A stretch of 64,000 bases of DNA from Janthinobacterium sp. (GTDB lineage: Bacteria > Pseudomonadota > Gammaproteobacteria > Burkholderiales > Chitinibacteraceae): positions 62,001 through 126,000 of the forward strand of contig JANYCY010000074.1 of assembly GCA_025360045.1 (NCBI GenBank), in the 5' to 3' direction. Within the stretch, counting starts at the first letter, position 1, and each line of letters begins with the position of its first letter. Shown here piece after piece: positions 43,031-46,410 of the stretch. A program made the position numbers and the translations under genes. The notes beneath the pieces are model-generated. The model saw only the letters and a program-made list of their open reading frames with translations, ran no database searches and was not told the DNA's origin.

Positions 43031-43153
43031 GCAAAATCTCGAACCATAGAGAACACAGAGAGCACAGAGCTTCACAGAGGAACGCAATAGATTTGATGGT
43101 TTTCTCTGTGGCCCTTTGTGGCCTCGTTTTCCTCTGTGGTTCAAGGTTTAGCT
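43031..43153. repeat. CACAGAG-family palindromic element upstream of nrdD
   Basis: The left arm ATCTCGAACCATAGAGAACA carries several CACAGAG units. The right arm CCTCTGTGGTTCAAGG mirrors it. Full palindromic form like those at 40788 and 45357. The rest of the 42987-43347 spacer holds the FNR-type box and no gene. Confidence 0.8.
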
Positions 43154-43245
43154 CTCTATCAAGGCTCGCGACGAATCTTGTAGATTAGAAAATTCCTATC
43201 CAGAGCGGGCATTCTGCTCGCTCTGCAAATCTATTCTGAAAGTAT

Positions 43246-43347: not shown

Positions 43348-45342
43348 ATGACCATATACCCGCAATATGTGCTGAAACGCGATGGCCGCATCGTGCCTTT
43401 TGATATCGATAAAATTCGCCTTGCTCTGCTGAATGCCAGCCGCGTAACCGCTGAGTTTGATGAGGCAGAAGCAATCCGCTTAAGCACGCTGATTAGCAGC
43501 CACTTGCAGGGTGATCTCACCCCCACCATCGAGCAGATTCAGGATCAGGCTGAAGAAGCGCTGCTGCAATATCATTATTTAAAAACCGCCCGTGCCTATA
43601 TTGCGTACCGCAGCCAGCATGCGCGTTTGCGCTCGGATGTGCGTACGGTGGTGGATGTTGAATCGTCGATTAATGAATATCTGGATCAATCAGATTGGCG
43701 GGTAAATGCCAATGCCAATCAGGGCTGGAGCTTGGGCGGGCTAATTTTAAATACCAGCGGCAAGATGATAGCCAATTACTGGTTAAGCCATGTTTATCCG
43801 CCGGAAATTGGAGAGGCACATCGCTCTGGTGCCATGCATATTCATGACTTAGATATGCTGTCTGGCTATTGCGCAGGCTGGTCTTTACGCCGCCTATTGC
43901 AAGAGGGTTTTAATGGCGTGCCAGGCAAGGTAGAAGCCAAGCCACCCAAGCATTTCTCCGCCGCTATTGGCCAGATTGTTAATTTTTTAGGTACTTTGCA
44001 AAATGAATGGGCGGGTGCGCAGGCATTTAGCTCGTTTGATACCTATATGGCGGCATTTATTCGTGCCGATAATCTGCAATACAAGCAGGTAAAGCAGTAT
44101 ATCCAAGAGCTGATTTATAACCTGAATGTGCCTAGCCGCTGGGGCACGCAAACGCCGTTTACTAATCTGACTTTCGATTGGATCTGCCCAGAAGATTTGC
44201 GCGAACAAATTCCCTATGTGGGCGGCAAGGAAATGCCATTTAGCTACGGTGATTTGCAAACTGAAATGGATATGATTAACCGCGCCTATATCGAAGTGAT
44301 GATGGAAGGCGATGCGCTGGGCCGCGTATTTACTTTCCCGATTCCCACCTACAACATCACCAAAGATTTTGCATGGGATCACCCCAATACCGATCTTTTG
44401 TTTGAAATGACCGCTAAGTATGGCCTGCCCTATTTCCAGAATTTTTTAAATTCGGATCTAGAGCCGCATATGGTGCGCTCCATGTGCTGCCGCTTGCAGC
44501 TTGATCTGCGCGAGTTGTTAAAGCGCGGCAATGGTTTATTTGGCTCGGCTGAGCAGACTGGCTCCTTGGGCGTGGTCACCATTAACTGCGCTCGCATTGG
44601 TTACGAATTTAAAGGCAATGAAGCGGGCCTGATGGCGCGTGTTGATCAGCTGATGGATTTGGCCAAGCAATCTTTAGAAATTAAACGCAAATTAATTGGG
44701 CGCTTAATTGATGGCGGTCTTTACCCCTATACCAAGCGTTACTTAGGCACGCTGCGTAATCACTTCAGCACGCTTGGGGTGAATGGCATTAACGAGATGA
44801 TTCGCAATTTTAGCGATGATAAAGATGATATCAGCAGCGAGGCGGGCTATGCCTTAGCCATCCGTTTGCTCGATCATATTCGCGCCAAAATGACCGAAAT
44901 TCAGGAAGAAACTGGCCATCTTTATAATCTGGAAGCCACGCCAGCCGAAGGCACGACTTATCGCTTTGCCAAAGAAGATAAAAAGTTTTATCCCGATATT
45001 TTGCAGGCAGGAACGCTAGAGCAGCCCTTCTATACCAACTCCAGCCAGCTGCCGGTTGGCTTTACGGATGACCCGTTTGAGGCCTTGGGGCGTCAGCAGG
45101 AATTGCAGCGTAAATACACCGGTGGCACGGTATTGCATCTGTATATGAACGAGGCGATTTCTAGCCCTGCAGCATGTAAAGCACTGGTGAAAAAAGCGCT
45201 AACTAACTATCGCCTGCCCTACATCACCATCACGCCAACTTTCTCTATTTGCCCGAAACACGGTTACCTGAGCGGCCACCACGAGTTTTGCCCAAAGTGC
45301 GATAGCGAGTTGCTGGCAAAGAAGTGTTGTGTATCGAGTTAG
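43348..45342 (+). CDS. nrdD: Anaerobic ribonucleoside-triphosphate reductase catalytic protein lacking the glycyl-radical segment
   Basis: A 664-residue class III reductase. The ATP-cone is at about 5-95 (YVLKRDGRIVPFDIDKIRLA). The catalytic part has MHIHDLDMLSGYCAGWSLRR, NLNVPSRWGTQTPFTNLTF, and LGVVTINCARIGYEF. The C-terminus ends with a zinc motif: Cys635-x2-His638 and Cys648-x2-Cys651, then TAG. The usual glycyl-radical stretch that should follow is missing from this frame; it is found in a separate gene at 45509-45688. AGGTGGGG precedes the ATG. Makes dNTPs without oxygen. Confidence 0.93.
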   Translation: MTIYPQYVLKRDGRIVPFDIDKIRLALLNASRVTAEFDEAEAIRLSTLISSHLQGDLTPTIEQIQDQAEEALLQYHYLKTARAYIAYRSQHARLRSDVRTVVDVESSINEYLDQSDWRVNANANQGWSLGGLILNTSGKMIANYWLSHVYPPEIGEAHRSGAMHIHDLDMLSGYCAGWSLRRLLQEGFNGVPGKVEAKPPKHFSAAIGQIVNFLGTLQNEWAGAQAFSSFDTYMAAFIRADNLQYKQVKQYIQELIYNLNVPSRWGTQTPFTNLTFDWICPEDLREQIPYVGGKEMPFSYGDLQTEMDMINRAYIEVMMEGDALGRVFTFPIPTYNITKDFAWDHPNTDLLFEMTAKYGLPYFQNFLNSDLEPHMVRSMCCRLQLDLRELLKRGNGLFGSAEQTGSLGVVTINCARIGYEFKGNEAGLMARVDQLMDLAKQSLEIKRKLIGRLIDGGLYPYTKRYLGTLRNHFSTLGVNGINEMIRNFSDDKDDISSEAGYALAIRLLDHIRAKMTEIQEETGHLYNLEATPAEGTTYRFAKEDKKFYPDILQAGTLEQPFYTNSSQLPVGFTDDPFEALGRQQELQRKYTGGTVLHLYMNEAISSPAACKALVKKALTNYRLPYITITPTFSICPKHGYLSGHHEFCPKCDSELLAKKCCVSS

Positions 45343-45356
45343 AAAGCATTTTATTA

Positions 45357-45477
45357 AACCCACATCTTGAACCACGGAGTTAAGGAGAACACGGAGCTAC
45401 ACGGAGGAAATCAAAACAAGGTTTTCTCCGTGAAACTCCGTGTTCTCTGTGTCCTCCGTGGTTAAAGATTTGGGTTC
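45357..45477. repeat. 121-bp hairpin repeat between nrdD and its glycyl-radical gene
   Basis: Left arm AACCCACATCTTGAACCACG and further CACGGAG units pair with a right arm CTCCGTGGTTAAAGATTTGG plus GTT. Nearly 50 bases per arm can pair. A CACAGAG-family element, fully within the spacer 45343-45508. The spacer shifts the frame relative to nrdD by one base. Confidence 0.85.
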
Positions 45478-45508
45478 AAATCTTAATCAAACTTAACAGG
45501 AAAAAATC

Positions 45509-45688
45509 ATGAGTGATTTATCGGTTCAAGCAAAATTGGCCCCTGAGCTTAAAGATGAAGAGCGCACTCGCTGCGAGGTCTGGACTCGGGTGATGGGTTA
45601 TCACCGGCCGGTGAGCAGTTTTAATATTGGTAAGAAGGGCGAGTTTAAAGAACGGCAGTTTTTTAACGAATGTAATACCGTTCAATAA
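45509..45688 (+). CDS. Separate glycyl-radical domain peptide of anaerobic ribonucleotide reductase
   Basis: A 59-residue protein starting MSDLSVQAKLAPELKDEERT. Residues 22-41 (CEVWTRVMGYHRPVSSFNIG) contain RVMGY, the glycyl-radical motif of class III reductases (Gly30). The end is GKKGEFKERQFFNE, as in the C-termini of one-piece NrdD. AGGA lies 8 bases before the ATG. Its TAA overlaps the nrdG ATG (TAATG). It probably docks on the 664-residue NrdD and receives the radical from NrdG, comparable to GrcA/YfiD acting for pyruvate formate-lyase. Whether related bacteria share the split is not visible here. Confidence 0.85.
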   Translation: MSDLSVQAKLAPELKDEERTRCEVWTRVMGYHRPVSSFNIGKKGEFKERQFFNECNTVQ

Positions 45689-46410
45689 TGATGCCCGCGC
45701 CCAAGATTGGCGGCTTGGTGCCGTTCTCTAGCTGTGATTATCCCGGCGAGCTTGCTTGTGTGGTGTTTTTGGCGGGCTGCCCTTGGCGCTGTGGCTATTG
45801 TCATAATCCGCATTTACAAGCGCGAGAGCAGCACGATGCAGCACCACAGTGGGATGAAATCCTCATCTGGCTAAAAACGCGCCGTGGTCTCTTAGACGCG
45901 GTGGTTTTTTCGGGCGGCGAGCCACTGATCGAGCCTCAGTTACCCGAGATGATGCGTGCTGTAAAAGCACTGGGCTTCAAAATTGGCCTGCATAGCGGTG
46001 GGGCTTATCCCAAGCGTTTGCAGGAGTGCTTGCCCTATCTGGACTGGGTGGGTTTTGATATTAAAAGCGATTTTATGCTTTACGAAAAAATCACTGCCGT
46101 TACTGGCAGTGGTGCTGTTGCGAGTGCCTCATTAAAGCTGCTACTGGCGAGCAAGGTGGCGCTGGAATGCCGCAGCACTATCCATCCCAGCCTGCATAGC
46201 GAGGATGAGCTGATTGCCCTTGCCCAAGCATTAAGCGACTTAGGAGTGCAGCGCTATGTATTGCAAGCTTTCCGCTCTGCTGGGTGTGCTGAGCCTGCTT
46301 TGATTAACTCCGCGCAGCTTCATTTTGCGCAGTTTCCTCAGCCTGCCACCTTAGCGGCAATTGAGCAGCAGTTTGCTTCATTTCAGTTTGTATCAGCACT
46401 TGCTGCCTGA
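45688..46410 (+). CDS. nrdG: Anaerobic ribonucleoside-triphosphate reductase activating protein
   Basis: A 240-residue radical SAM protein. FLAGCPWRCGYCHNP holds the Cx3Cx2C cluster motif (Cys31, Cys35, Cys38). VVFSGGEPLIEPQLPEM is the SAM-binding GGEP. It generates the glycyl radical on the NrdD system. Its first codon overlaps the stop of the glycyl-radical peptide, so both are made together. A second ATG follows at 45691. The last 107 bases overlap the convergent SulP gene. Confidence 0.93.
   Translation: MMPAPKIGGLVPFSSCDYPGELACVVFLAGCPWRCGYCHNPHLQAREQHDAAPQWDEILIWLKTRRGLLDAVVFSGGEPLIEPQLPEMMRAVKALGFKIGLHSGGAYPKRLQECLPYLDWVGFDIKSDFMLYEKITAVTGSGAVASASLKLLLASKVALECRSTIHPSLHSEDELIALAQALSDLGVQRYVLQAFRSAGCAEPALINSAQLHFAQFPQPATLAAIEQQFASFQFVSALAA

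Follow-up and report, generated by a model that had tools for sequence, protein, structure and literature searches.

A split class III ribonucleotide reductase with a putative stand-alone glycyl-radical subunit, and orphan copies of the peptide on viral and plasmid DNA

Where does a class III ribonucleotide reductase carry its radical glycine when the gene for its catalytic chain ends before reaching it? The question is raised by a locus in a 64,000-nucleotide stretch of Janthinobacterium sp. DNA (hereafter the window; assembly GCA_025360045.1, contig JANYCY010000074.1, positions 62,001 to 126,000 of the forward strand), in which nrdD stops after its zinc-type motif, the glycyl-radical motif lies in a separate 59-codon gene, and nrdG follows. 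Our analysis indicates that these three genes very probably encode a two-chain class III reductase together with its activase, the 59-residue peptide being the glycyl-radical subunit; in its working the system appears to be a glycyl radical enzyme of two chains, one of them a radical subunit that can come off. A preliminary description, made from the letters of the window, had proposed a split reductase of this kind, and both the division of the family profile between two genes and the comparison with relatives bear it out.

The 562 positions of the NrdD model PF13597 are divided between two open reading frames (ORFs): nrdD aligns with positions 2–529 (578.9 bits) and the 59-residue ORF with positions 532–562 (33.0 bits, cut-off 26.2). 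nrdD also matches NF006126 at 1117.6 bits (cut-off 548) over profile positions 3–655 of 684. Its barrel matches the class III family models, and a dedicated NrdG activase is encoded (TIGR02495, 183.4 bits, cut-off 131.15) by a gene that overlaps that of the peptide; the glycyl-radical motif, which a class III NrdD has in the same chain, is here in the separate gene, and on these sequence grounds we file the window NrdD as a two-chain variant of class III reductase. On re-reading, the NrdD chain does end after its zinc motif, the motif stretches CEVWTRVMGYHRPVSSFN are present as first described in a gene with its own ribosome-binding site (Table 1), the reading frames of nrdD and this gene are offset by one base, and the stop codon TAA of the peptide gene shares bases with the ATG of nrdG (TAATG), coupling the two. 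Gly30 of the peptide lines up with the RIVGY motif of T. maritima NrdD, and the finger-loop stretch RSMCCRLQ, which likely includes the radical cysteine, does not vary across the 16 rows of alignment A3. A second, full-length nrdD elsewhere would have changed the picture; the source genome holds a single nrdD and a single peptide, its other NrdD match being an ATP-cone match within a 962-residue frame.

The comparison with relatives that the preliminary description called for shows how common this form is. In the window's family the peptide occurs in 28 of 43 genomes, and NrdD is tail-less in all 28; 13 genomes have only a one-piece NrdD, none of these 13 with a separate peptide, and two have neither form. 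One-piece NrdD and the split pair were seen side by side in two genomes of the family (G025 and G027). The class sample comprised 369 genomes, and 33 of them scored above the NF006126 cut-off: 28 are tail-less, all with a peptide match, four are one-piece (G263, G370, G096, G055) and one is a fragment (G379). In a phylum sample, PF13597 was above cut-off in 56 of 398 genomes, 11 of them split and most of the others one-piece; overlapping matches with stops in G572 left it unclassed. G189, which has only a 35-residue NrdD match ahead of a peptide that the contig end truncates, was counted neither way. Length of the open frame was dropped as a test of splitting, since frames in high-GC DNA tend to be long; by frame length G301 and G198 look one-piece, yet a closer scan shows both to be split. 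Judged by these samples, the split is the normal form across a broad lineage, an alternative that the preliminary description had itself put forward.

Outside these samples, a scan of named genomes returned at least 587 encoding stretches, of which the best 80 were kept. The split is found on plasmids of Cupriavidus (including CH34), Bradyrhizobium, Azospira, Shinella, Paracoccus, Sulfuricystis and Sulfuricurvum. Three loci from Omnitrophota and a further one with Deltaproteobacteria as its title show it as well (L093, L101, L102, L106). Plasmid annotation names the peptide as plain NrdD or as a hypothetical protein. On Azospira plasmid pAZI09 (L205 1–6034), class I alpha, split NrdD, peptide, NrdG and class I beta stand in a row. 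A radical SAM/DUF4070 protein lies between peptide and nrdG in two loci (L133 3751–5649, L105 3750–5657), in the first of which no NrdD was found within 3.5 kb upstream.

A sequencing or assembly error, the first thing to suspect in a broken gene, or a decaying pseudogene has practically no claim left: the repeat element in the spacer could suggest a recent insertion, but the same split recurs in 28 family genomes (in several of them within one contig) and in 28 genomes of the class sample, the spacers of other genera are unrelated, and the peptide is under strong purifying selection. Over 36 within-genus pairs the mean proportion of nonsynonymous differences (pN) in the peptide was 0.008 against a mean synonymous proportion (pS) of 0.41, both computed on a 35-codon core picked around the motif.

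The hairpin itself looks incidental, being one copy of a dispersed intergenic repeat, with 86 matches across the source genome, many places matching on both strands. The preliminary description was right about a 166-bp spacer containing a repeat and slightly off about the repeat's length, which is 126 bp on re-reading instead of 121 bp. As a cause of the split it was rejected, on its dispersal and on the spacers read from other genera, in which no such hairpin was found. Similar sequence is also visible near 43040–43160 of the window. With regard to a possible conserved attenuator in the spacer, 13 of the 70 spacers of at least 30 nucleotides are terminator-like by a rule of our own, 11 of these 13 in the window's family.

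Could the two genes nevertheless yield one chain, through ribosome bypass or a frameshift over the spacer? The genes are usually adjacent, and in 26 of 130 split loci they share one frame. Across the 130 loci, however, spacer length varies between −41 and 549 nucleotides (median 33) with all frames represented, and the peptide gene has a Shine-Dalgarno-like site of its own in 127. The peptide–nrdG pair lies 9 kb away from nrdD in G703; G003 has one nrdD match and two peptides, with nrdG after each. The order is nrdD–nrdG–peptide in viral contig L328, and other viral contigs, discussed below, have the peptide and no nrdD. The variable spacers together with G703 and G003 make a joined chain unlikely as a general rule, and we hold a single joined NrdD to be very improbable; from gene anatomy we infer two chains acting in trans.

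The preliminary description had likened the arrangement to GrcA (YfiD), the small E. coli protein that supplies a replaceable glycyl-radical part to pyruvate formate-lyase (PFL). This holds only as an analogy. For a GrcA-type spare that would merely repair an otherwise complete reductase speak the small size and autonomy of the glycyl-radical protein and the second peptide copies in G003 and G309; such a spare is improbable all the same, although less so than a joined chain. GrcA accompanies an intact enzyme, whereas the cellular peptide makes up for a tail that is absent: in 28 of 28 cases the NrdD beside it lacks a radical glycine, and the 13 genomes with only a complete enzyme all lack the peptide. 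Nor does it show homology to the C-terminus of PFL; a Pfam scan at E ≤ 1 returns PF13597 (NRDD) alone.

The history of the split is less easily read. In an NrdD tree, a 44-row clade (support 98) comprises all 40 split rows and four nested one-piece rows, which implies at least four changes between the two forms within the clade; a single split clade is not rejected (approximately unbiased test, p-AU 0.37). The tree is a quick build with long branches, from which rows L322, L134, L183 and L316 were dropped beforehand. One original split with later rejoinings is possible. Among the nested sequences are same-type one-piece NrdDs on plasmids of Actinomyces, Acidiphilium and Acidithiobacillus (L144, L147, L324), which keep CEVWTRVMGY and may be rejoined genes.

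Where the chain is cut is compatible with a peptide that completes the barrel. In alignment with NrdD of T. maritima (numbered as in 4coi), the zinc-motif part extends to residue 610 and the radical-motif part begins at 616 (the latter alignment weak on its own, E 0.06), so that the cut falls in the short linker between the two motifs. A natural read-through of a Thiobacillus thioparus locus (L099) was modelled with AlphaFold2 (AF2) from 88 rows, giving a mean predicted local distance difference test score (pLDDT) of 81.2 and a predicted template modelling score (pTM) of 0.75, with pLDDT of 75–85 in the peptide part and 48–60 in the linker. Residues 102–724 of the model superpose on 94–735 of P. 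copri NrdD (8p2s_B; Z 31.3, root-mean-square deviation 2.7 over 533 residues), and the model superposes on T4 NrdD (1h78) up to model residue 708, T4 residue 587. Provided that no gap intervenes, model Gly701 would coincide with T4 residue 580, which we take to be the radical glycine. The superposition thus extends through the glycine loop, and in this joined model the peptide sits where the radical domain normally does; it indicates compatible geometry, not binding.

Glycyl radical enzymes are cleaved by oxygen at the glycine. In the scheme we propose, the peptide would dock in trans on the NrdD barrel and bring Gly30 into the active site, close to the cysteines of the finger loop; the radical would be placed on the peptide glycine by NrdG with S-adenosylmethionine. 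Binding in trans, radical formation and reductase activity are all inferred. Whether oxygen cleavage spends only the small peptide, with fresh peptide restoring activity, we regard as an even call, and repair by peptide replacement, which the preliminary description had raised, is plausible. The closest approach to evidence from living cells comes from Cupriavidus necator H16, whose pHG1 genes are split (NrdD 676, peptide 66 and NrdG 239 residues) and in which NrdDG is stated, citing earlier work, to be essential for complete denitrification in the available part of one paper (PMC2864759). The same text lists the NrdDG of C. metallidurans as Rmet_5137 and Rmet_5139, skipping Rmet_5138. For P. 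aeruginosa, PA1920 is listed at 76 kDa in the portion available of another (PMC12284477), a size near that expected for the 676-residue C. necator NrdD, which is suggestive only. Against a two-chain enzyme it counts that the in vivo evidence from C. necator H16 is second-hand, that the L099 model joins both chains and so cannot show trans binding, and that an earlier AF2 model, built from 16 rows, was of poor quality and was set aside.

The coordinates of the locus are collected in Table 1. Upstream of nrdD lies an FNR/Anr-like box with one mismatch to the consensus; such sites number six in the window where 2.5 are expected, so that the box is weak by chance.

Table 1. The split reductase locus, in coordinates of the window
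Feature	Coordinates	Strand	Basis or remark
FNR/Anr-like box TTGAT-TAAC-GTCAA	43246..43259	+	weak; ~90 nt upstream of nrdD; one mismatch to consensus
nrdD, body of the class III reductase lacking the glycyl-radical tail, 664 residues	43348..45342	+	NF006126, PF13597
ATP-cone, NrdD residues 7–92	43366..43623	+	PF03477, 67.7 bits
Finger-loop Met-Cys-Cys (379–381), likely radical cysteine site	44482..44490	+	read from sequence
Zinc-type motif CPKHGYLSGHHEFCPKC, NrdD residues 635–651	45250..45300	+	aligns with cysteine motifs of solved NrdDs
166-bp spacer, nrdD to peptide gene	45343..45508	+	sequence
Dispersed hairpin repeat within spacer	45354..45479	.	nested inverted repeats, 126 bp
AGGA ribosome-binding site, 7 nt before peptide ATG	45498..45501	+	sequence
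Putative stand-alone glycyl-radical peptide gene, 59 residues	45509..45688	+	PF13597 positions 532–562; conserved in alignment A1
Gly30 codon, presumed radical glycine	45596..45598	+	invariant in alignments A1 and A2
nrdG, radical SAM activase, 240 residues	45688..46410	+	TIGR02495 NrdG2

The peptide is also found apart from its enzyme. A scan of a collection of predicted viral contigs found 127 peptide-encoding stretches, of which the best 80 were fetched. The peptide stands alone in all 80, with no NrdD or NrdG match nearby in any (up to 6 kb on each side, less at contig ends). In the 50 of these for which the whole record was searched with PF13597 (10 to 108 kb), no NrdD body was found; every match starts at position 521 or later, in frames of at most 190 residues, and G790 has an additional weak match at 521–544. 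These records may be fragments, and absence from a record is not absence from the virus. Neighbouring genes encode DNA polymerase, clamp loader, replication initiator, helicase, endolysin and tail fibre proteins, as well as integrase, terminase and portal proteins (149 ORFs, 26 of 80 loci), and some of the peptides sit inside replication modules. Plasmids of Allochromatium vinosum and A. tepidum carry orphan peptides too, and neither belongs to the 29 plasmids that matched NrdD in a search of plasmids, not chromosomes. In G309 the second peptide gene, in a prophage-like region, is flanked by genes for RecT and SSB, and a protein with a ribonucleotide reductase barrel is encoded close by.

There were 58 distinct viral peptides, one of which (L252) was left out of a scan against the PHROGs profile phrog_4132. 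All 57 scanned match it, as does the window peptide (58 of 58 rows of alignment A2, E ≤ 0.01), whose match covers about 43 of the 179 profile positions. Across these 57 viral rows and the window, 14 positions besides the radical glycine do not vary, an invariance partly selected by the scan motifs. Seven viral peptides (L220, L227, L234, L263, L265, L272, L281) are extended at the N-terminus by a cysteine-rich stretch, which may form a separate metal site.

The body of this NrdD type is encoded in five viral stretches (L325–L329), against 127 for the peptide, a rough comparison in which the two scans used different motifs. The radical motif is separate from the body in three of the five (L326, L327 and L328); L325 is truncated where its contig stops, and no radical motif was seen in the forward frames read of L329. 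Insertions were noted in two of these bodies (L327 4001–6385, L329 807–6289), that of L327 including an in-frame one of 140 residues placed, as would be possible for an intein, at the two active-site cysteines.

We lean, with some reserve, towards reading the viral, plasmid and prophage-like peptides as mobile radical cartridges, which would give the host's class III reductase fresh subunits and so raise or restore the supply of deoxyribonucleoside triphosphates (dNTPs) during anaerobic infection. It is for these orphan copies, apart from any enzyme, that the analogy with the spare parts GrcA and Y06I is stronger. They might instead block the reductase of the host as decoys, or be leftovers in the course of drift. 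Among isolated phages the window peptide found two matches, one annotated as a reductase, the L263 peptide found one, and the L222 peptide found none; so few relatives argue against a common role in well-sampled phages and count in favour of decoys or leftovers. Against this stand the glycine and its flanks, invariant in the 57 viral rows if partly favoured by the scan motifs, the position of some peptides within replication modules, and an excess of pS over pN, on the 35-codon core, in all 355 viral pairs with moderate pS. Decoys or leftovers are unlikely, though they deserve more weight than any of the alternatives considered for the cellular system.

How does this compare with what is known? 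The one-piece NrdDs of E. coli, T4, T. maritima and P. copri share the family models (PF13597, TIGR02487, NF006126) with the window system, and likewise the ATP-cone, the barrel, a zinc-type motif, the radical motif and an NrdG partner; the difference is that the radical domain is here a separate gene product. GrcA and Y06I, the PFL spare parts of E. coli and phage T4, are small autonomous glycyl-radical proteins that can act on a larger enzyme and are known in a phage-borne version, as set out in the accessible text of PMC8683613, but the window peptide is homologous to NrdD, not PFL, and in cells it would stand in for a missing tail, with no intact enzyme to repair. According to the same text, spare parts have been validated for PFL only, and other enzymes of the glycyl radical type may have them too. 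The split class II NrdJa/NrdJb of P. aeruginosa is likewise a two-chain reductase found through a whole lineage (PMC9669993 and PMC3267527, as available); it is B12-dependent, and that split isolates no radical glycine. Phage nrdD also comes in pieces, with introns, inteins and homing endonucleases (PMC3653736, in part), but there one gene is broken, while the window's radical domain is an independent gene, often found without the body. A family-wide reductase phylogeny excluded sequences shorter than 400 residues, by the part of PMC9531940 at hand, and the peptide would have been dropped from it. Our literature search, which covered subscription journals thinly, found no description of this division of NrdD or of its radical peptides in viruses, and a report may exist; in PHROGs the function of phrog_4132 is unassigned, and its reading as an NrdD radical peptide is that of this analysis.

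If the radical glycine does reside on a chain of only about 60 residues, cheap to make and open to exchange, repair by replacement becomes directly testable. The cartridge reading, if true, would extend spare parts or donors beyond PFL to another glycyl radical enzyme, and would supply a function for phrog_4132. The viral copies suggest a compact viral route to a higher anaerobic dNTP supply.

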